Part shown: one piece after another, positions 7,070 through 44,060 of the stretch
Layout of the letters: every line of letters begins with the position of its first letter
Position numbering within the stretch: position 1 is the first letter of the stretch
Source of the DNA: Echinarachnius parma
Taxonomy: Eukaryota; Echinodermata; Echinoidea; Clypeasteroida; Echinarachniidae
Length of the DNA: 64,000 bases
Direction: 5' to 3'
Assembly: GCA_037951105.1 (NCBI GenBank)
Contig: JBAMJV010003338.1
Coordinates: 95,020-159,019, forward strand
Made by a program: the position numbers and the translations under genes
Notes under the pieces: generated by a model
The model's input: only the letters and a program-made list of their open reading frames with translations
Told to the model about the DNA's origin: nothing
Databases searched by the model: none

Positions 7070-8640
7070 CGTTGGCCAAATCTCATTCAACCAACCAATA
7101 ACGACACTACGTAGTAGGCAAAACGTTGGCCTAACGCTGGCTTGCCTACCGTCGAAATGTGGTTGTTTGTTAAAGGTTGGTTTGACGTCAACTAGCCAAC
7201 CAATATCCAACGTCGCTCATTAACCGAATGTTGTAGTAGGCGAAATGTTGGCCTAACGTTGGCTTGCCCACCGTCGAAATGTGATTGTTTGTTAAAGGTT
7301 GGTTTGACGTCAACTAGCCAACCAATATCCAACGTCGCTCATTGACCAAATGTTGTAGTAGGCGACACGTTGGCGTAACGTTGGCTTGCCTACCGTCGAA
7401 ATGTGGTTGTTTGTTAAAGGTTGGTTTGACGTCAGCTAGCCAACCAATATCCAACGTCGCTCATTGACTGAATGTTGCAGTAGGGGAAACGTTGGCCTAA
7501 CGTTGGCTTGCCCACCGTCAAAATGTGGTTGTTTGTTAAAGGTTGGTTTGACGTCAACTAGCCAACCAATATCCAACGTCGCTCATTGACCGAATGTTGT
7601 AGTAGGCGAAACGTTGGCCTAATGTTGGCTTGCCTACCGTCGAAATGTGGTTGTTTGTTATAGGTTGGCTTGACGTCAACTAGCCAACCAATATCCAACG
7701 TCGCCCATTGAGCGAATGTTGTAGTAGGCGAAACGTTGGCCTAACGTTGGCTTGCCTACCGTCGAAATGTGGTTGTTTGTTATAGGTTGGCTTGACGTCA
7801 ACTAGCCAACCAATATCCAACGTCGCCCATTGAGCGAATGTTGTAGTAGGCGAAACGTTGGCCTAACGTTGGCTTGCCTACCGTCGAAATGTGGTTGTTT
7901 GTTAAAGGTTGGTTTGACGTCAGCTAGCCAACCAATATCCAACGTCGCTCATTGACCGAATGTTGTAGTAGGCGAAACGTTGGCCTAACGTTAGCTTGCC
8001 TACCGTCGAAATGTGGTTGCTTGTCAAATGTTGCTTTGACGTCAGCTAGCCAACCAATTTGGAACGCCATTCATTGACGTAATTACGTAGTAGGCGAAAC
8101 GTTGACTCAACGTTGGCTTGCCTATTGTCGAAATGTGGTTGTATGTCAAACATTGGTCTGACGTCAACTAGCCAACCAATATCCAACGCCACGCATTGGC
8201 CGAATGTTGTAGTAGGCGAAATGTTGGCCCAACGTTGGCTTGCCTACCGTCGTAATGTGGTTGTTTGTCAAACGTTGGTTTGACGTCAACTAGCCAACCA
8301 ATATCTAACGCCACTCATTGACAGAATATTGTAGTCGGCGAAACGTTGGCCCAACGTTGACTATCATACCGTCGAAATGTGGTTGTGTATTTAACGTTGG
8401 TCTGACGTTCACAAGCCAACCAATATCCAACGCAAGTCATTGACACAATTTCGTAGTAGGAGAAACGTTGGTATAACGTTGGCTTGCCTACCGTCGAAAT
8501 TTGGTTGTTTGCCAAACGTTAGTACGACGTCAACTAGCCAACCAATATCCAACGCCACTCATCGACACAATGTCGTAGTAGGCGAAACGTTGGCCCAACG
8601 TTTGTTTTTCGACCATAGAAATATGATTGTTCGTCCAACT
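7070..8640. repeat. 122-bp satellite, 13 copies
   Basis: GTAGTAGG recurs at 7111, 7234, 7356, 7478, 7600 and on to 8575, exactly 122 bases apart. Each unit carries ACGTTGGCTTGCCTACCGTC and GACGTCAACTAGCCAACCAA. Copies are closest in the middle and decay towards 8640. It forms the right arm of the element at 3563-8846. Confidence 0.9.
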
Positions 8641-12750: not shown

Positions 12751-13790
12751 GTTTGAACAATTATTCACATTTCCTAATAACAAGAATTGCTTAACAACAA
12801 CAAATAATTTCTTGATATCAAGAATTAATTTGTTGATATCAAGAATTAATTTCTTGATATCAAGAAATAAATTCATGATATCCAGAATTCGATTTCTTGA
12901 TATCAAGAATTCGATTTCTGGATATCAAGAATTGAATTCTTGAAATCAAGAGTTACCATTGGTTAAAGGGATAGTTGAGTTCTGGTAAGGAGAGTACAGT
13001 TTTGGTGAAACTGAATTTTAGTAACCAAAACCTGCATCATTGCATTACAAACTAATAGTTATAACTAAATTTAGAAAGGAACACAAAATTACAAATGACG
13101 TAGTAAAGATCATGTTATCATTCAAAAAGAGCCGTTAAAACATAAGAGGGCGCTCTCTAAACACTCATCGGTTTCAACCATTTTGAATAAAATATTGTGC
13201 ATGTGATGCTTTGTTGAAATAGTGATTAGATAGAGAAATAACCCACAACTATTTAGATACCTATTTTGTAACTTTTTGAAAAGAGGAAGCATTTTTTTTT
13301 TTTTTTTTAACGGCTGGTTCAAAATTCTCTAATAAACCTGGGGCCTCAGGTTTATTACAAATTGTTATATTTATGGATATTTCAGCCGTCTCTGAACCGA
13401 TTTTGATCAAACAAAGATGATTTTATTATTTAAATATTATGCTCTTTCAAATGTTACACTCAGTTTTTCATTACCTCACAACAAAATAAGTAGTCTAGCG
13501 CCCTCTCTACCAAAACTCAACTATCCCTTTAACAACAGAAAATTATTTCTTTATATCAAGAATTCGATGTTCAGTTATGCGAAACTGCTTTACAAAAGGC
13601 GCCCTGCGAGAATCAAGAATTCTTTTCTTGATATCAAGAAATTAATTATTGATATCAAGAAATGAATTATTGATATCAAGAAATGAATTATTGATATCAA
13701 GACATTATTTGTTGTTGTTAAGCAATGGTTATTCTTGATATCAAGAAAAGGAAATAAATGTTAAAACGTCTAGCCATGACTGGCCATGCT
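12750..13790. mobile_element. GATATC-palindrome element, interrupted
   Basis: Two blocks (12800-12955 and 13615-13755) are arrays of the palindrome TTCTTGATATCAAGAA at about 20-bp spacing. The ends are inverted: GCTTAACAACAACAAATAAT near 12790 and ATTATTTGTTGTTGTTAAGC near 13696. A TTAA MITE (12967-13528) sits in the middle. GGCAAGCCGTTT at 12742 matches the TIR edge of the related element at 25953-26312. Confidence 0.65.
12967..13528 (+). mobile_element. TTAA-flanked MITE, complete copy
   Basis: TIRs AGGGATAGTTGAGTTCTGG and CCAAAACTCAACTATCCCT, with TTAA immediately outside at 12963-12966 and 13529-13532. The interior contains CAACTATTTAGATACC and GCCGTCTCTGAACCGATTTT. TTAA target choice is the hallmark of piggyBac-type transposition. 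No transposase, so non-autonomous. Inserted in the GATATC element. Confidence 0.85.
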
Positions 13791-18250: not shown

Positions 18251-19090
18251 GATTTTGACAATGTTACTTAGTCCCTTAAACACCATAGGCAAAAAACATT
18301 ACATGCGGATATAGTAGTCTAGTAGGAAATAGGGGTTCCCATGCACCCCCCTAAAAACATGTTTTGATTATGATTTCTAGGACCCCTAGTATATCCTTTT
18401 AAACAATTTAGATGTTAACAGCGAACAAAAATGTCACTTTGGGTAAAATGGGCATATTTCCAAAATGGCCGCCAAATATCCATTAAAATATCATAATTTT
18501 TCATTAAAGTAGATTCTGGTCCATTTTCAATTATTTTTGTGTATGTAAGCTAATACATGGATTAAGTTAAACTGTTAGCATCATCCCCGGAGATATCAAA
18601 GGTCAAGGTCATGTTTAAAGGTCAAAGGTCAAACGATTTTTGTTCGAAATAGGCAAATAATGAATAAAAATTGGTATAATACAAAGTCATGTTAATTTTT
18701 GTGCAAAATAAAGGGGTCATGTATCAATATATTTATTTTTTCTACAACATTAATGTCCTGTTATGCCGGAAAACTCATCTTGACCATTTAAAAGTGTTCA
18801 ATAGGACTGTATTTTCATGACAATTGAAACAATACCATGTCACATATTGAAAGAAAATGCACAAGATTAATACAGACTAATACATAATTTTAAACATAAC
18901 ATGTGTAACGGAAAATATTAAAATCAATTAAAGGCCAATGGTCATATCAAGGTCACATGTCAAGGTTAAAGGTCAAGGTCACATATCAAGGTCACGTGAC
19001 AAGGTCAGGGTCACGACATATATACATTTGATATCTGATGAAAGCATGCTTAATGTAGATTCTAGTAATAATAATGATATTTTACATGTA

Positions 19091-21388
19091 CACATTTAAC
19101 AAATCGAACTTGCACATTAAACAAGTCAAACCGCACATTTAACAGGTAAAATCGCACATTTAACAAGCCAAACCGCACATTTTAACAAGTCAAACCGCAC
19201 ATTTAACAAGTCAAACCGCACATGTAACAAGTCAAACTGCACATTAAACAGGTCAAACCGCACAATCAACAAGTCAAACCGCACATTGAACAGGTCAGAC
19301 CGCACATTCAACAAGTCAAACCACACATTTAACAAGTCAAAACACACACTTAACAAGTCAAACCGCACAATTAACAAGCCGAACCGCACATTTAACAAGT
19401 CAAACCGCACATTTAACAGGTAAAATTGCACATTTAACAAGCCAAACCGCACATTTTAACAAGTCAAACCGCACATTTAACAAGTCAAACCGCACATGTA
19501 ACAAGTCAAACTGCACATTTAACAGGTCAAACCGCACATTGAACAGGTCAGACCGCACATTCAACAAGTAAAACCACACATTTAACAAGTCAAAACACAC
19601 ACTTAACAAGTCAAACCGCACATTTAACAAGCCGAACCGCACATTTAACAAGTCAAACCGCACATTTAACAGGCGAAATCGCACATTTAACAAGTCGAAC
19701 TGCACATTGAACAAGTCAAACCACACATTTAGCAAGCCGAACCGCACATTTAACAGGTCAAATCGCACATTGAACAAGTCGAACCGCACATTTAACAGGT
19801 CAAACCGCACATTCAAAAAGTCAAACCGCACATTTAACAAGTCAAAACACACATTTAACAGGCGAAATCGCACATTTAACAAGTCGAACTGCACATTAAA
19901 CAGGTCAAACCGCACATTTAACAAGTCGAACTGCACATTGAACAAGTCAAACCACACATTTAGCAAGCCGAACCGCACATTTAACAGGTCAAATCGCACA
20001 TTGAACAAGTCGAACCGCACATTTAACAGGTCAAACCGCACATTCAAAAAGTTAAACCGCACATTTAACAAGTCAAACCGCACATGTAACAAGTCAAACT
20101 GCACATTTAACAGGTCAAACCGCACATTGAACAGGTCAGACCGCACATTCAACAAGTAAAACCACACATTTAACAAGTCAAAACACACACTTAACAAGTC
20201 AAACCGCACATTTAACAAGCCGAACCGCACATTTAACAAGTCAAACCGCACATTTAACAGGCGAAATCGCACATTTAACAAGTCGAACTGCACATTGAAC
20301 AAGTCAAACCACACATTTAGCAAGCCGAACCGCACATTTAACAGGTCAAATCGCACATTGAACAAGTCGAACCGCACATTTAACAGGTCAAACCGCACAT
20401 TCAAAAAGTCAAACCGCACATTTAACAAGTCAAAACACACATTTAACAGGCGAAATCGCACATTTAACAAGTCGAACTGCACATTAAACAGGTCAAACCG
20501 CACATTTAACAAGTCGAACTGCACATTGAACAAGTCAAACCACACATTTAGCAAGCCGAACCGCACATTTAACAGGTCAAATCGCACATTGAACAAGTCG
20601 AACCGCACATTTAACAGGTCAAACCGCACATTCAAAAAGTTAAACCGCACATTTAACAAGTCAAAACACACATTTAGCAGGCGAAATCGCACATTCAACA
20701 AGTCAAACCGCACATTTAACAAGTCAAAACACACATTTAACAAGTCAAACCGCACATTTGACAAGTCAAACCGCACATTTAACAGGCGAAATCGCACATT
20801 TAACAAGTCGAACTGCACATTAAACAGGTCAAACCGCACATTTAACAACTCGAACTGCACATTGAACAAGTCAAACCACACATTTAGCAAGCCGAACCGC
20901 ACATTTAACAGGTCAAATCGCACATTGAACAAGTCGAACCGCACATTTAACAGGTCAAACCGCACATTCAAAAAGTCAAACCGCACATTTAACAAGTCAA
21001 AACACACATTTAACAGGCGAAATCGCACATTTAACAAGTCGAACTGCACATTAAACAGGTCAAACCGCACATTTAACAAGTCGAACTGCACATTGAACAA
21101 GTCAAACCACACATTTAGCAAGCCGAACCGCACATTTAACAGGTCAAATCGCACATTGAACAAGTCGAACCGCACATTTAACAGGTCAAACCGCACCTTC
21201 AAAAAGTAAAACCGCACATTTAACAAGTCAAAACACACATTTAACAGGCGAAATCGCACATTCAACAAGTCAAACCGCACATTTAACAAGTCAAAACACA
21301 CATTTAACAAGTCAAACCCGACAATTAACAAGCCGAACCGCACATCTAACAAGTCAAACCGCACATTTAACAAGTCAAACTGCAGATT
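19091..21388 (+). repeat. 21-bp satellite, left array, ~110 units
   Basis: Unit core ATTTAACAAGTCAAACCGC with a period of 21. Higher-order structure is visible: an 11-unit (231-bp) block and a 28-unit (588-bp) block recur, for example segments starting near 19707 and 20295. The period is divisible by three, so long open frames exist on both strands (NVRFDLL or NKSNRTF repeats). They are by-products of the satellite, not genes. Confidence 0.95.
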
Positions 21389-24300
21389 GAACGCGGTTTA
21401 ACTTGTTAAATGTGCAGTTTAGCTTGTTAAATTCGAGGTTTGACTTGTTAGATGTGCGGTTTGACTTGTTCAATGTGCGGTTTGACTTGTTAAATGTGCA
21501 GTTTAGCTTGTTAAATGTTCGGTTTGACTTGTGCAATGTGCGGTTTGTCTTGTTAAATGTGCGGTTTGACTTGTTGAATGTGCGGTTTGACCTGTTCAAT
21601 GTGCGGTTTGACTTGTTGAATATGTGGTTTGACCTGTTAAATGTGCGGTTTGACTTGTGCAATGTGCGGTTTTGTTTGTTAAATGTGTGGTTTGAGTTGT
21701 TCATTGTGCGGTTCGATTTGTTAAATGCGGTTCGTTAAATGTGCGGTTCAGCTTGTAAAATGTGCGGTTTGACTTGTGCAATGTGCGGTTTGGCTTGTTA
21801 AATGTGCGGTTTGGCTTGTTAAATGTGTGGTTTGACTTGTTCAATGTGCGGTTCGACTTGTTAAATGTGCGGTTCGGCTTGTAAAATGTGCGGTTTGACT
21901 TGTGCAATGTGCGGTTTGGCTGGTTAAATGTGCAGTTTGACTTGTTGAATATGCGGTTTGACCTGTTAAATGTTCGGTTCGACTTGTTAAATGTGCGGTG
22001 TGACTTGTTAAATGTGCGGTTTGACTTGTTAAATGTGAGGATTGACTTATTAAATTTGCGGTTCGGCTTGTTAGATGTGCGGTTTGACTTGTTCAGTGTG
22101 CGGTTTGACTTGTTTAATGTGCGGTTCGGCTTGTTAAATGTGCGGTTTGACTTGTGCAATGTGCGGTTTGGCTTGTTAAATGTGCAGTTTGACTTGTTGA
22201 ATGTGCGGTTTGACCTGTTAAATGTTCGGTTCGGCTTGTTAAATGTGCGGTTTGACTTGTTAAATGTGTTCTTTGACTTGTTTAATGTGCGGTTCGGCTT
22301 GTTAAATGTGCGGTTTGACCTGTTCAGTGTGCGGTTTCACTTGTTCAATGTGTGGTTTGGCTTGTTAATTGTGCGGTTTGACTTGTTAAATGTGTGCTTT
22401 GACTTGTTAAATGTGCCGTTCGGCTTGTTAATTGTGCGGTTTGACTTGTTAAATGTGTGCTTTGACTCGTTTAATGTGCGGTTCGGCTTGTCAAATGTGC
22501 GGTTTGACTTGTGCAATGTGCGGTTTGGCTTGTTAAATGTGCAGTTTGACTTGTTGAATGTGCGGTTTGACCGGTTAAATGAGCGGTTTAGCTTGTTAAT
22601 TGTGCGGTTTGACTTGTTAAATGTGTTCTTTGACTTGTTTAATGTGCGGTTCGGCTTGTTAAATGTGCGGTTCGACCTGTTCAGTGTGCGGTTTCACTTG
22701 TTCAATGTGTGGTTTGGCTTGTTAAATGTGCCGTTCGGCTTGTTAATTGTGCGGTTTGACTTGTTAAATGTGTGCTTTGACTCGTTTAATGTGCGGTTCG
22801 GCTTGTCAAATGTGCGGTTTGACTTGTGCAATGTGCGGTTTGGCTTGTTAAATGTGCAGTTTGACTTGTTGAATGTGCGGTTTGACCGGTTAAATGAGCG
22901 GTTTAGCTTGTTAATTGTGCGGTTTGACTTGTTAAATGTGTTCTTTGACTTGTTTAATGTGCGGTTCGGCTTGTTAAATGTGCGGTTCGACCTGTTCAGT
23001 GTGCGGTTTCACTTGTTCAATGTGTGGTTTGGCTTGTTAATTGTGCGGTTTGGCTTGTTAAATGTGTGCTTTGACTCGTTTAATGTGCGGTTCGGCTTGC
23101 GGTTTGACTTGTTAAATGTGTGCTTTGATTTGTTTAATGTGCGGTTCGGCTTGTTAAATGTGCGGTTTGACCTGTTCAGTGTGCGGTTTCACTTGTTCAA
23201 TGTGCGGTTTGGCTTGTTAATTGTGCGGTTTGACTTGTTAAATGTGTGCTTTGACTTGTTAAATGTGCGGTTCGGCTTGTTAATTGTGCGGTTTGACTTG
23301 TTAAATGTGTGCTTTGACTTGTTTAATGTGCGGTTCGGCTTGCGGTTTGACTTGTTAAATGTGTGCTTTGATTTGTTTAATGTGCGGTTCGGCTTGTTAA
23401 ATGTGCGGTTTGACCTGTTCAGTGTGCGGTTTGACTTGTTCAATGTGCGGTTTGGCTTGTTAATTGTGCGGTTTAGCTTGTTAAATATGAGGTTTGACAT
23501 GTTTAATGTGCGGTTCGGCTTGTTAATTGTGCGGTTTGACGTGTTAAATGTGTGCTTTGACTTGTTTAATGAGCGGTTTGGCTTGTTAATTGTGCGGTTT
23601 GACTTGTTAAATGTGTGCTTTGACTTGTTAATGTGCGGTTCGGCTTGTTAAATGTGCGGTTTGACCTGTTCAGTGTGCGGTTTGACTTGTTCAATGTGCG
23701 GTTTGGCTTGTTAATTGTGCGGTTTGACTTGTTAAATGTGCAGTTTAGCTTGTGAAATGTGCAGTTTGACTTGTGCAATGTGCGGTTTGACTTGTTAAAT
23801 GTGCGGTTTGACCTGTTCATTGTGCGATTTGACTTGTTGAATATGCGGTTTGACCTGTTAAATGTGCAGTTTGACTTGTTAAATGTGCGGTTTGGCTTGT
23901 TAAATGTGTGCTTTGACTTGTTCAATGTGCGGTTCGACTTGTTAAATGTGCGGTTCGGCTTGTAAAATGTGCGGTTTGACTTGTGCAATATGCGGTTTGG
24001 CTTGTTAAATGTGTGGTTTGACTTGTTCAATGTGCGGTTCGGCTTGTTAAATGTGCGGTTTGACTTGTACAATGTGCGGTTTGGCTTGTTAATGTGCAGT
24101 TTGACTTGTTGAATGTGCGGTTTGACTTGTTCAATGTGCGCTTTGACTTGTTAAATGTGCGCTTCGGCTTGTTAAACGTGCGGTTTGACCTGTTAAATGT
24201 GCATATTGACTTGTTAAATGAGTGCTTTGATTTGTTTAATGTGCGGTTCGGCTTGTTAAATGTGCGGTTTGACCTGTTCAGTGTGCGGTTTGACTTGTTC

Positions 24301-25145
24301 AATGTGCGGTTTGGCTTGTTAATTGTGCGGTTTGGCTTGTTAAATATGAGGTTTGACCTGTTTAATGTGCGGTTCGGCTTGTTAATTGTGCGGTTTGACT
24401 TGTTAAATGTGTGCTTTGACTTGTTTAATGAGCGGTTTGGCTTGTTAATTGTGCGGTTTGACTTGTTAAATGTGTGCTTTGACTTGTTAATGTGCGGTTC
24501 GGCTTGTTAAATGTGCGGTTTGACCTGTTCAGTGTGCGGTTTGACTTGTTCAATGTGCGGTTTGGCTTGTTAATTGTGCGGTTTGACTTGTTAAATGTGC
24601 AGTTTAGCTTGTGAAATGTGCAGTTTGACTTGTGCAATGTGCGGTTTGACTTGTTAAATGTGCGGTTTGACCTGTTCATTGTGCGATTTGACTTGTTGAA
24701 TATGCGGTTTGACCTGTTAAATGTGCGGTTTGACTTGTTAAATGTGCGGTTTGGCTTGTTAAATGTGTGCTTTGACTTGTTCAATGTGCGGTTCGACTTG
24801 TTAAATGTGCGGTTCGGCTTGTAAAATGTGCGGTTTGACTTGTGCAATATGCGGTCTGGCTTGTTAAATGTGCGGTTTGGCTTGTTAAATGTGTGGTTTG
24901 ACTTGTTCAATGTGCGGTTCGGCTTGTTAAATGTGCGGTTTGACTTGTACAATGTGCGGTTTGGCTTGTTAATGTGCAGTTTGACTTGTTGAATGTGCGG
25001 TTTGACCTGTTCAATGTGCGCTTTGACTTGTTAAATGTGCGCTTCGGCTTGTTAAACGTGCGGTTTGACCTGTTAAATGTGCATATTGGCTTGTAAAATG
25101 TGCGGTTTGACTTGTTTAATGTGCGGTTCGACTTGTTAAATGTGT
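21389..25145 (-). repeat. 21-bp satellite, right array, ~178 units, inverted
   Basis: Same unit in reverse (GCGGTTTGACTTGTTAAAT). A large block is duplicated about 859 bp apart (from 23759 and from 24618). Variants such as TTCGGCTTG and TGTGCTTTGAC form subfamilies. Scattered one-base changes in unit length break the frames. It is longer than the left array, so the two arms have expanded independently since the inversion formed. Confidence 0.95.
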
Positions 25146-25952
25146 ACATGTGAAAGATCATTATTTTTACTAAAATCATTAAGCATGCTTTCATTAGAGA
25201 TCAAATGTATATATGTCGTGACCCTGACCTTGTCACGTGACCTTGATATGTGACCTTAACATGACCATTGGCCTTTAATTGATTTTAATATTTTCCGTTA
25301 CACACGTTATGTTTAAAATTATGTATTAGTCTGTATTAATCTTGTGGGTTTTCTCTCAATATGTGACATGGTATTGTTTCAATTGTCGTGAAAATACAGT
25401 CCTATTGAACGCTTTTAAAGGGTCAAGATGAGTTTTCCGGCATAACAGGACATTAATGTTGTAGGAAAAATAATTATATTGATACATGACCCCTTTATGT
25501 TGCACAAAGATAAACATGACTAAGTATTATACCAATTTGTATTCATTATTTGCCTATTTCGAACAAAAACTGTTTGACCTTTGACCTTTAAACATGACCT
25601 TGACCTTTGATATCTCCGGGGATGATGCTAACAGTTAATCCATGTATCAGCTTACATACACAAAAATAATTGAAAACTACTTTAATGAAAAAATATGATA
25701 TTTTAATGGATATTTGGCGGCCATTTTGGAAATATGCCCATTTTACCCAGAGTGTCATTTATTTTTCGCTGTTAACATCTAAATTGTTTAAAAGGATATA
25801 CTAGGGGTCCTAGAATTCATAATCAAAAAATGTTTTCGGGGGGGTGCATGGGAACCCCTATTTCCTACTAGTCTATAGGGAGAAACTTGCAGGGAGAAAC
25901 TTGCAAACATCGAGCACAAACACGAAACATGATGAAGGGGATTATGTTTCTA

Positions 25953-26312
25953 AAGGAGTGGTCACATTGGACACGACTCCCCACGACTAGACCCACGAAT
26001 GCAGTACGCATTGGTACAAATCTATGGCAAGCCGTTTTAACATTTATTCCTATTTCTTGATATCAATAATTGAATTATTGATATCAGTTTATTTCTTGAT
26101 ATCAAGTATTACTAATACAAAAAAGTATATTTCTTGATATCAAGAATGCATTTCTTGATATCAAGAATTCGATTTCGTGATATCAAGAATTGAATTCTTG
26201 ATTTCAAGAAATAGGAATAAATGTTGAAAACGGCTTGCCATTGATTTGTACCAATGCCTACTGCATTCGTTGGTCTAGTCGTGGGGAGTCGTGTCCAATG
26301 TGACCACTCCTT
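25953..26312. mobile_element. 360-bp MITE with ~110-bp near-perfect TIRs
   Basis: AAGGAGTGGTCACATTGGAC at 25953 is inverted at 26312. The arms match for about 110 bases with roughly five differences. The centre is an array of TTCTTGATATCAAGAA-type palindromes, as in 12750-13790, and the arms include GGCAAGCCGTTTT. It sits about 75 bp beyond the satellite foldback element. Confidence 0.85.
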
Positions 26313-28612: not shown

Positions 28613-29119
28613 TGAGATGCAAAGATTAATAATAAGTCCTTTTACGATACGATCATGTTGAATTTTATTGTGTTTTGTATCCTTGTTTTTAACCTTAAAT
28701 TTCACCCTTTTATATGTGTCAAATTGAAACAAAATAAAGATTTATATGAACTTTAAAATGTTACTTGTTTTATGAACACTTTTCCTTTCATAAAACACTG
28801 CATTTGTCCTAATTATTTAGCTTTAAAACACCGGTATCTTAGCTCAGTACGTAGAAAGATGACACATACATGGTCGTCAATTAATTATAAATTATACTCT
28901 TCACTTCTGCCTCATTATAACAGCGAGTGCAACCAAGCTGTGAGTTTATTTTTAAATTGCATTCGATTGGGACGTTTTCAAGTGTTTTTGACACAGTATT
29001 AGTAGAGCAGATAAGTGTAAAATATCATGTAAATCGTTCAAAGTTTGATACAAGCAACATACTTGGTATGCAGACTACCTTAGGGATACTTTTTAGAAAA
29101 AAACACTTAGCCAAGCGAA

Positions 29120-29700
29120 AATTCAAGATGGCGGCCATTTTCCAAGATGGCCGCCGAAAAGCTACTTTTTTTATATAAAAATTGACTGGGTTGGCCGATT
29201 TTAGTAATCTTGGTGTCGTTTTATATGTTTATTGACATGCTGAACACGATGGTAATACATAAGGACCCATGTGATGGCCAAAATCCAAGATGGCCACCAT
29301 TTTCCCAGATGGCCCCAAAAAGATATTTTTTTATATAAAAATTGACTGAGTTGGCTGATTTTAATAATCTTGGTGTCGTTGTATATGCTTATTGACATGC
29401 TGAACACAATGGTTATAAACAGATTCATATGATGTCCAAAATCCAAGATGGCTGCCATTTTTACAGATGGCCCCAAATAGCTACTTTTTATTTTAAAAAT
29501 TGACTGAGTTGGCCGGTTTGGATAATCTTTGTGTTGACTTGAACGTTAATTTATAATATCAAAAGCGATTGTAATTCACACGGACCAATATAATAGCGAA
29601 AATCCAAGATGGCTTCCACCTTCAAAGATAACCGCCAAGGCTAATTTTTTTTCTCATAAAAGTTGACTGAGTTTGCCGATTTTTATTATCTTGATGTCGA
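29120..29700 (+). repeat. ~160-bp tandem units, left arm
   Basis: CAAGATGG recurs at 29124, 29286, 29454 and 29605. Each unit has a paired CAAGATGGC...CCAGATGGCC block, then a short T/TATA stretch, AAATTGACTGAGTTGGC, and ATTGACATGCTGAACAC. Confidence 0.85.
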
Positions 29701-31669: not shown

Positions 31670-32470
31670 TACGCCATCTTGGAAAATGGCCGCCATGTTC
31701 GATTTTTACCATTATTTAGATCCATTTGTATGAAAATAGTTTTCAGCTCATCAAACAACCTTTTAATCAGTACAAAGATTATTAGAATCAACCAACTCAG
31801 TCAGTTTTTGGAAACAAATGTAACATGCTTTTTGGCAACCGTCTTGAAAAATGGTCGTCATGTTGGATTTTCGCCATTATATATGTCTGTATGAATCATA
31901 ATCGTCTTCAGCATATCAGGTCACATGTGAATCGACATCAAGATCATGCCTTGGCGGTCATCTTGGAAAGTGGCAGCCATCTTGGATTGGGGCCATCGTA
32001 TGAGTCCGTATGTATCACCAGTGTGTTCAGCATGTCAATAAACATATAAAAAACGACACCAAGATTATTAAAATCGGCCAACTCAGTCAATTTTTATATC
32101 AAAAAGTAGCTCTTTCGGGCCATCTTGGAAAATGACGGCCATCTTGGATTTTGGCCATCATATGAATCTGTATGTATCACCATTGTGTTCAGCATGTCAA
32201 CAAACGTATAAAACGACACCAAGATTACTAAAATCGGCCAACTCAGTCAATTTTTATATAAAAAAGAAGCTTTTTTGGGCCATCTGGGAAAATGGCGGCC
32301 ATCTTGGATTTTGGCCATCGTTTAAGTCCGTATGTATCACAATTGTGTTCAGCATGTCAATAAACATATAAAACGACACCAATATTACTAAAATCGGCCA
32401 ACCCAGTCAATTTGTATATCAAAAAGTAGCTTTTTGGCGGCCATCTTGGAAAATGGCCGCCATCTTGGAT
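31670..32470 (-). repeat. ~160-bp tandem units, right arm
   Basis: Inverted counterpart of 29120-29700. TCTTGGAAAATGGCCGCCAT and GGCCATCTTGGAAAATG blocks alternate with TTCAGCATGTCAATAAAC and GCCAACTCAGTCAATTTTT. Frames across it are artefacts of the repeats. Confidence 0.85.
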
Positions 32471-32590
32471 TTTCGCGTGGCTAAGTGTTTTTTCTTGAAA
32501 AGTGTCCCTATTGTAGCCAACATACCAAGGCTCTTGCTTGTATCAAACTTTGAACGATTAATACACTTATCTGCTCTACTATATCATTGT

Positions 32591-33724: not shown

Positions 33725-34290
33725 TCTCTATAACTCGTATGTTTCCATACAGGGTCGCCCCCCAAAAAAGGAACGGGGCACTTCCCAAAATAAAATAATA
33801 AAATGATTTTTTCCATCGGATGGGGTGTCTTTTCCAATGAAAAACGATACCAAGAACAGTCGTATCGTGTAGTTTTTGTTTTAGGGCGCTGTGAGTGACA
33901 CCATGTCAGGTTCCCTTTTTGTCAATTTTTACCAAGTCAGTGCCCTATAATTCGCACTTACTGCCCGTCATAAGCATTGAAGAACGAGCATAACGCGCGC
34001 CATTGTTAGTGTGCATTCAGCTGTGTCCCGATATAATTGTCTGATGCTGTAAGGGGAAGGAATTGCGATTCATCAGGCAGTGACTCGGTAAAAAATGACA
34101 AAAATGGGAACCTGACATGGTCTCACTTAGAACGTCATACAACAAAAACTACTTGTCCAAAATCACTGTTCTTGGTATCGTTTTTCATTTTTTCATTGGA
34201 AAAGACACTCTATCCGATTGACATAATCGTTGTGTTACTATAATTTGGGAAATGCCCCGTTTCGTTTTTTGGGGGCCACCATGTATAGCT
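33725..34290. mobile_element. foldback element, ~250-bp inverted arms
   Basis: The left arm (GGTCGCCCCCCAAAAAAGGA, GTGTCTTTTCCAATGAAAAA, GATACCAAGAACAGT, ACCATGTCAGGTTCCC) is mirrored to the right, ending in TTTTTTGGGGGCCACCATG. The right arm ends about 35 bp before the splice acceptor of the death-domain exon, so the arm is intronic. A partial relative is at 2440-2765. Confidence 0.8.
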
Positions 34291-34324
34291 CATATGTTTT
34301 CCTTTCCTACATGACTTCGATTAG

Positions 34325-34611
34325 AGAAGCGGATGAGATCTCTGATATGAGTTTGCGGAGGATCGCGAGAGCCATCGGAGGAAGCAATACGAATCTAATG
34401 GATTTGGGTTTGGAGCTTCGCTTTAAGATTGTCCAGGTCAAACAATACATTCAATCAAATAAGCTTGGCGGCGAGGTGACGATAGACGGAACAAGTTCCA
34501 TGTTGTTTGATTGGAGGGACAGCCAATTAAAGAAGGACCAACGTCGCACCCTGAGAGCAGCACTAGAGGAAGCTGGTCTCCTCCGAATCGCAGAGGAGCA
34601 TTTAGTATTAC
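34325..34611 (+). CDS. internal exon encoding a death domain
   Basis: Encodes about 95 residues with the pattern of a death domain: an opening helix SLRRIARAIGGSNTNLMDLG, then ELRFKIVQVKQYIQSN, a variable loop, the conserved MLFDWRD, and the closing helices TLRAALEEAGLLRIAEEHL. Death domains are six-helix modules that pair with other death domains in adaptor, receptor and NF-kB or apoptosis signalling, usually in the cytoplasm. The acceptor is TTCGATTAG|AGAAGC (phase 2) and the donor is TTAC|GTATGT (phase 1). The open frame continues upstream into the foldback element, but that part reads as the transposon arm and I treat it as intron. Upstream exons were not found and may lie outside the window or among the repeats. 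The domain lies at the C-terminus, the usual place in adaptor and receptor proteins. Parent protein not identified. Confidence 0.7.
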
Positions 34612-35385
34612 GTATGTTCTTTCATCGCAAACTAGCAATGTTTTTTTGTGATTTCAACTTTACGATAACCATGAGGATAAGATTTTTGAAGAACACTTGC
34701 AGTTTAATGAAATGTATACATAACATTTAATGGCATTAATTGTATCTATTTTATTAAGAACTATTCACTAAAATCATTGAGCACAGTTATTGGTTGTAAA
34801 GAGAAGAAGTTAGGATTAGTAGTTGTTACTTTATCAAATCATTCAATCAAACATAATGCCCGAATCGATAATATATATGAGTATGTAATGCGTTGAAGAT
34901 TGTGGTCTTCAAGTTCGATCCTTCCTGACGTTGGTAAACGTTACAAAATAAGCAAATGATATGTAAATCTTCAGGCATGAACAGGGGAACCACGCTCATT
35001 CCAAAATCTTAATGAAACATACCTTGTTGTCTTACCTTTCCTAGACATTGCAAACATAACTGACCTCCGTTGAATTGAGTAGTTGCTGATCTAAATTTTC
35101 ATACATTTACAGTTCGCCGTTGTCCAGGAGTTAGAAAACGAAAATGGGAACTCATCCGATTTAAACATGCACTCACTTAGTATTGTTTATGTTGCATTAC
35201 TACGTAATGTTTACAATGAGGTTAATTATTAAACGAACCGATTAATGTATCTTGTTAAATCCGAGTAAATATTATTTGCCAGATAAATGGGGACTACCGG
35301 TTCTTGATATTCAATTATATCAATACATAATTTTATGATAATTATTTCCAGTTTTATTTTCGGCCCTGTTTGATCTTTTCTTCAG

Positions 35386-43371: not shown

Positions 43372-43554
43372 TTAACTCAAATAAAACAGTAAATCTAAAT
43401 TCAGTTATTCTCACAGTGCCATATTATAATCAAAATGATTATGTATTACATTGCAATATTTGCATTGCATACTTCATGTTACATCAGATATCTTTGTTTG
43501 TATCATGGCTTTAAAATAGTACGACCTGGACCTTGTCATAACAGAGCTCGTTCT

Positions 43555-44060
43555 AAAGAGGTTCCACTGTAATAAATCGCTCCCTTGATGCAGCTACATG
43601 TATTGATAGCATAAGCCCACACACAAGATAAAACACAAATTGTATTTGAATCTCCTTACCACAAGATAAAACACACAAAAAAAACTAAAGAGGTTCCACT
43701 GTAATAAATCGCTCCCTTGATGCAGCTACATGTATTGATAGCATAAGCCCACACACAAGATAAAACACAAATTGTATTTGAATCTCCTTACCACAAGATA
43801 AAACACACAAAAAAAACTAAAGAGGTTCCACTGTAATAAATCGCTCCCTTGATGCAGCTACATGTATTGATAGCATAAGCCCACACACAAGATAAAACAC
43901 AAATTGTATTTGAATCTCCTTACCACAAGATAAAACACACAAAAAAAACTAAAGAGGTTCCACTGTAATAAATCGCTCCCTTGATGCAGCTACATGTATT
44001 GATAGCATAAGCCCACACACAAGATAAAACACAAATTGTATTTGAATCTCCTTACCACTT
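43555..44060. repeat. 132-bp tandem array, ~3.8 near-identical copies
   Basis: AAAGAGGTTCCACTGTAATA starts copies at 43555, 43687, 43819 and 43951, exactly 132 apart, and the copies look identical by eye. AGAGGTTCCACTGTA with GAGCTCGTTCTA just before it resembles a Tigger-type transposon terminus. The lack of divergence means the expansion is recent, or an assembly effect. Confidence 0.9.

Follow-up and report, generated by a model that had tools for sequence, protein, structure and literature searches.

What kind of element is a 7,561-bp palindrome in which two arrays of one 21-bp repeat face each other, how do its arrays change, and does its satellite exist apart from it? The palindrome lies at positions 18315-25875 of a 64,000-nucleotide stretch of contig JBAMJV010003338.1 of Echinarachnius parma, hereafter the window, and is the only such element there. 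On the basis of searches of the draft genome assembly (1.2 Gb in 14,790 contigs), we consider it to be a non-autonomous foldback DNA transposon, with a probability of about 0.92: its copies are dispersed, they are bounded by 3-bp duplications, empty sites exist, and the central junction has been inherited by most of the copies with opposed arrays. A first-pass annotation made from the window alone had proposed a Foldback-type element, and this proposal is borne out by paired inverted arms at ten two-ended loci, nine of them with identical flanking triplets, and by empty or related empty sites for two copies. The element has the features by which foldbacks are recognised, namely long inverted repeats with internal tandem repeats and mobility accompanied by target-site duplication. 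Contigs and stretches of the assembly are cited below by our working labels (C496, L010 and the like). The cox1 and cox2 genes of the assembly, on C14600, can be translated sensibly with the echinoderm mitochondrial code, AAA standing at customary Asn positions and ATA at customary Ile positions, which fits an echinoderm host.

Each end of the element lies two bases further inside than had been annotated (18313..25877), whereas the foldback structure itself stands (Table 1). The outer arms, put at about 750 bp in the first-pass annotation, measure 731-776 bp and are 95.3% identical across 730 aligned bases, with several short gaps in addition. The two arrays share one consensus of the 21-bp unit, run in opposite orientations and abut without a spacer, and the earlier estimate of about 110 units facing about 178 agrees with our count. 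Mean identity, taken over units of exactly 21 bp (106 left and 171 right), is 0.84 inside the left array, 0.836 inside the right array, and 0.832 between the two. The separate higher-order structures noted at first sight were recovered by comparing windows at fixed lags, the best 210-bp windows being 98.6% identical at 231 bp and 100% identical at 588 bp in the left array, and 100% identical at 859 bp in the right one. As had been noted, no recognisable protein is encoded in the element, the long stop-free frames of the arrays being read-throughs of the repeat, and an Rfam search of the window gave no match. The central 1,001 bases have a predicted single-stranded DNA fold of -402.6 kcal/mol (given without a shuffle control at that length), which is consistent with the very stable hairpin that had been envisaged, but the units of the two arrays average only 83% identity to each other.

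The genome-wide search for the arm, the 21-bp unit and further insertions, which the first-pass annotation had suggested, revealed a dispersed family. With a 500-bp arm query, at least 45 matches were obtained on at least 27 contigs, a lower bound because 40 of 72 candidates were scored. The 26-bp end added six contigs, giving at least 33 with arm or end; among the six, further arm matches were absent from C10679 and only short or weak in C4082 and C8389. This end occurs at 37 places in the 1.2 Gb with up to three mismatches, whereas the reversed pattern occurs at none, so the ends are not due to chance. Contigs with common flanks were treated as one locus each (C3372, C1272 and C6854; C6881 and C8302; C13807, C7370 and C1875), and the flanks of C8473 and C11673 are 83% alike. 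After merging, about 27 loci remain, many of them fragments. Both ends were found on 11 contigs representing ten loci, which range in length from 3.3 to 8.7 kb; nine of these ten, and 11 loci overall, have opposed arrays. The copies vary in their interior. Array patterns are more broken in L012, L014 and L017, and about 310 bp of extra non-repetitive arm is present on the inner side in L016, L018 and L022.

The ends of these copies also fix the length of the target-site duplication. The terminal sequence of the element is TAGTCTAGTAGG, and TAGTCTA stands exactly before GTAGG, GTTGG or GTAGA at 24 of the 36 ends listed, most others being one or two bases off. Because TAGTCTA lies inside the element in other copies, the duplication must be the 3 bp outside it. 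Two longer duplications were thereby rejected. The 5-bp TATAG duplication of the first-pass annotation gave way to TAG, as TATAG on the right side is the terminal TA of the element followed by TAG, and a 7-bp duplication, TAGTCTA, which had pointed to Galileo for a time, fell with the reassignment of that sequence to the element. The outside triplets match at nine of the 11 two-ended contigs, corresponding to nine of the ten loci (TAG, TAG, GTA, AAG, AAG, CTT, CGT, CAA and TAG). The triplets of L010 do not match; this is a noisy contig with the flanks of L011, and hence belongs to the same locus. An eleventh copy, on C2491, extends over 16.5 kb with a nested long interspersed nuclear element (LINE), and by eye is flanked by CTA on both sides.

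Movement is further documented by empty sites. When the flanks of the C1844 copy were joined with a single CTT, they gave an unbroken match of 98% on C496, the next-best match within the repeat family at that site reaching 93% (40 of 5,272 candidates scored). C496, with its one CTT, represents the empty allele or else a duplicate of very recent date. For the C11960 copy, related empty sites were found on C3427, C3593 and C5688, each with one CAA. The repeat family into which the C1844 copy inserted is also present, by eye, at 12963-13530 of the window.

The central junction, CTGCAGATTGAAC/GCGGTTTAACTTG, was found in the window, at the locus of L010 and L011, in L012 (twice), and in L013, L015, L018 and L022, altogether in 7 of the 11 opposed-array loci. 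This is most simply explained if a single inversion gave rise to most of the family. In L012 (1081-4940), the two central junctions have the opposite junction between them, making a palindrome within a palindrome, which may reflect inversion through recombination between the arrays.

Table 1. Features of the foldback element, with positions in the window
Feature	Position	Strand	Remark
Left target-site duplication, TAG	18312..18314		TAG also at the right side
Left arm, forming the non-repetitive outer part of the terminal inverted repeat, starting TAGTCTAGTAGGAAATAGGGG	18315..19090	+	arm alignment
Left satellite array, 109.5 units of CACATTTAACAAGTCAAACCG, higher-order lags of 231 and 588 bp	19091..21392	+	
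Central zero-spacer inversion junction, ...CTGCAGATTGAAC/GCGGTTTAACTTG..., break at 21392/21393	21375..21410		common to 7 of 11 opposed-array loci, with a few substitutions
Right satellite array, 178 units of the inverted CACATTTAACAAGTCAAACCG repeat, higher-order lag of 859 bp	21393..25144	-	
Right arm, inverted copy of the left arm	25145..25875	-	arm alignment
Right target-site duplication, TAG	25876..25878		TAG also at the left side

Several observations weigh against reading the family as a foldback transposon. The search for an empty site of the window copy was negative, the nearest paralogue of its flank, on C3560, resembling the left flank and ending 34 bp before the insertion. One of the ten two-ended loci, L013, has no matching triplet (ATG/TTG). 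Another, L016, has two arms but only a single array, of one orientation, and 4 of the 11 opposed-array loci (L009, L014, L017 and L030) have other centres. The array lengths come from a draft assembly, in which L010, by its flanks another contig from the locus of L011, is noisy. Finally, no transposase was seen in a partial scan. For that scan, L009-L034 were listed for frames of 120 residues or more and L042 for frames of 70 or more; six frames were sent to Pfam and the rest judged by eye. Reverse transcriptase was detected above the cut-off in L029 and L021 and below it in L025, with nothing in the other three. No autonomous partner was found among these stretches; the DNA common to L027 and L028 has no frame longer than 100 residues, and one short frame there is presumably the tail of a LINE. 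In the 16.5-kb C2491 copy, we could see the reverse transcriptase of a LINE but no transposase; within C2491:45513-62420 (L029, L042 and L040), the LINE is present in duplicate together with part of the array, at a distance of about 7.5 kb.

How the arrays change can be read from their sharing, which was measured in ungapped 210-bp windows at 95% identity or more across ten two-array copies and L016, with L010 and L030 left out. Within themselves, the window arrays recur over 83% (left) and 81% (right) of their length, whereas they have 0% in common with each other at this cut-off; the left array has 45% in common with the left array of L011 and the right one 13% with the right array of L012. 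Sharing between the two arrays of a copy was seen in six of the ten. It is most extensive in L018, where the left array covers 97% of the right (longest block 701 bp), and substantial in L012 (49%, with a block of 944 bp) and L017 (50% of the shorter array), followed by L014 (27-32%), L009 (26-32%) and L015 (17-26%). None was seen in the window, L011, L013 or L022, although in each of the last two one array (380 and 256 bp, respectively) is too short to weigh much. This pattern points to common expansion within arms and to exchange between arms in some copies. The arm tree agrees: the right arm of the window groups with that of L012 (95/90), and in L017 (100/100) and L013 (98/94) the two arms of the copy group together. 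L011 also has three copies, identical by look, of an unrelated 438-bp module that was amplified along with the repeat (906-bp period). L010 has one, a difference that may be allelic variation or an effect of assembly, given how noisy L010 is.

The following mechanism is proposed. A transposase encoded elsewhere would cut at the terminal inverted repeats (TAGTCTAGTAGG...) and insert the whole palindrome at a new site, with the 21-bp arrays moving as part of the arms. To judge from their patterns, the arrays would then expand and contract through slippage or unequal exchange inside the arm that holds them, which would give each arm its separate higher-order repeats. In some copies, the arms would exchange across the inversion, by conversion or inversion, leaving long near-identical inverted blocks. 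More tentatively, and at somewhat less than even odds, we suggest that a foldback lineage whose enzyme leaves 3-bp duplications, and so departs from the usual Mutator or P types, became a near-complete satellite palindrome in which the inverted repeats swallowed the whole element, and that two separate homogenisers, tandem expansion within the arm and exchange across the hairpin, differ in balance from copy to copy.

Why the arrays are kept is a further question. Each 21-bp unit, two helical turns in length, might offer the transposase one more place to bind, in which case an element with longer arrays would compete better for the enzyme. We think this unlikely, though worth keeping in mind as it supplements the transposon explanation rather than excluding it. 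For Galileo (PMC3573991) and Tetris (PMC4079207), the tandem repeats inside the inverted repeats have been discussed as additional binding sites, and the same consensus is kept in both window arrays. Yet the best match of the unit in the arm is no better than in shuffled sequence (196 of 300 shuffles were equal or better), which gives no indication that the unit is a copy of an arm site, and some arm-bearing stretches (L027 and L028, for instance) have no array at all. An origin of the 21-mer from the arm, as proposed for Tetris, was rejected because the match is within chance. The left arm has one other pattern of short motifs, nine AGGTCA hexamers in one orientation at 18600-19007, against 0.33 expected from 200 shuffles; we take the hexamer to resemble a nuclear-receptor half-site.

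A less probable account, to which we give a small chance, holds that a pre-existing satellite was captured between two arms instead of growing inside the element. We looked for the satellite across the assembly with a 501-bp array query, scoring all 35 first-look candidates and skipping very common words. Matches were obtained on 29 contigs, five of them with 30-62 bp only and 24 with at least 140 bp. Arm sequence is present on 22 of these 24, 21 by the arm and end searches together with C3383, whose arm remnant is the last 68 bp, 100% identical. What speaks for capture are the two remaining contigs, C7435 (a 452-bp array) and C573 (140 and 149 bp), on which no arm was found within the 2.4 and 4.0 kb examined; these free arrays are small and fit better as broken-off pieces. 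With an arm on 22 of 24 array contigs, the satellite has hardly left the element and does not show the independence from a mobile element of a classical satellite. It is an element-borne array with little escape. The first-pass annotation had linked transposition to the birth of a satellite; of this, the two arm-free contigs give at most a hint.

The 3-bp duplication also bears on the affiliation of the family. PIF/Harbinger elements make 3-bp duplications, at TWA only, whereas the triplets here are TAG, GTA, AAG, CTT, CGT and CAA. CACTA (EnSpm) elements also duplicate 3 bp, and so fit in that respect, but their termini begin CACTA or CACTG, unlike TAGTCTAGTAGG. The P superfamily duplicates 8 bp, and the 7-8 bp expected of P and Galileo elements are likewise not seen. 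A Mutator-type element is improbable to a high degree. Although the structural plan is alike and Mutator is the usual assignment of foldbacks (PMC4079207), the empty sites of two copies show a duplication of 3 bp and not of 8-10 bp, with which nine of the ten loci agree. Least probable of all is a collapsed or mis-inverted satellite block, for although a draft assembly in 14,790 contigs with at least one noisy duplicate (L010) leaves room for such an error, recurrence of the junction in 7 of 11 loci with differing flanks makes it very unlikely, both ends at ten loci with differing flanks and the empty sites for two copies also speak against it, and the artefactual central inversion that the first-pass annotation had itself named as a danger was not borne out.

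Other repeats were noted in the window and in related stretches. Beside the element, at 25953-26312, lies a small separate palindrome with inverted ends AAGGAGTGGTCACATTGGACACGACTCC... around ATTTCTTGATATCAAGAAT repeats, at which no target duplication was seen by eye; related repeats also occur at 12798-12955 and 13628-13748. Tandem arrays with units of 122 bp (7111-8602; 12.2 copies, 89% matches) and 132 bp (43553-44058; 3.8 copies, 100% matches) are present, the latter probably very recent in view of its perfect matches. Two arrays with a 158-160 bp unit containing AAGATGGCCGCCATTTT, at 29118-29534 and 31959-32473, are mutually inverted by consensus, and AATGGCCGCCAAATAT is present in the arm of the element as well. 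An open frame at 34227-34730 has a weak Death-domain match (E 0.021), below the curated cut-off. Elsewhere in the assembly, the arm-bearing stretches L020 (1456-2210) and L021 (1457-2200), one locus by their flanks, have a short array of the 21-bp repeat and, after it, inverted arrays of another repeat, CGTTATTCCGAAGGTT, which may be a nested element or a further satellite; related repeats are also present in L024.

FB of Drosophila melanogaster and TU of sea urchins are foldbacks whose arms have short tandem repeats; their target duplications are of 8-9 bp, and the host of TU is, like E. parma, an echinoderm. Compared by description, the plan of the E. parma element is like theirs, and their longer duplication sets them apart. 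Helentrons have neither terminal inverted repeats nor target duplications, whereas the E. parma element has both. Helentron-borne arrays of the Pacific oyster are nevertheless a case of a mobile element spreading short satellite-like arrays (PMC7492417). Galileo, of the P superfamily in Drosophila, has tandem repeats in its long inverted repeats that expand and contract independently in each arm, with ~210-bp repeats in up to three copies, 7-bp duplications and a known transposase sequence (PMC3573991); the E. parma element is similar in having such repeats and arms that change independently, and differs in its 3-bp duplication and in that no transposase was found in the partial scan.

The closest precedent is Tetris of Drosophila virilis (PMC4079207), in a paper that also names foldbacks of the FB and TU types. 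The long inverted repeats of Tetris consist of a tandem-repeat domain and, outside it, a unique domain of up to 866 bp, with further inner and middle domains; it has no apparent coding capacity and few complete copies, and its array size is unequal between two alleles, with 3 and 4 units of ~220 bp (PMC4079207). The E. parma element has the same arm plan, the lack of coding capacity and the link to satellite DNA, which as an idea is not new, having been published for Tetris (PMC4079207). In contrast to Tetris, with its target duplications of 8-10 bp and its repeat alone on 39 of 69 contigs in up to 66 copies (PMC4079207), the E. parma element has a 21-bp unit in 110 and 178 copies, no middle in the window copy, a 3-bp duplication, and few free arrays. 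In literature listings, with most subscription papers and all repeat databases outside reach, we noticed no foldback family with a 3-bp duplication, an absent middle, a 21-bp unit and arrays of such size, and exact-pattern scans of viral contigs and prokaryote genome contigs found no relatives.

To our knowledge, few worked cases tie foldback transposons to satellite DNA. This family offers ten two-ended copies with arrays of known phase and, in most, a shared junction landmark, which together make the change of an array after insertion readable, including expansion within arms as against exchange between them, and the escape of arrays. The filled version of one site on C1844 and its apparently empty version on C496 are a hint of recent activity. 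A foldback with a 3-bp duplication is also in line with an idea cited in the Tetris paper, according to which separate lineages of transposons acquire the foldback plan independently (PMC4079207).

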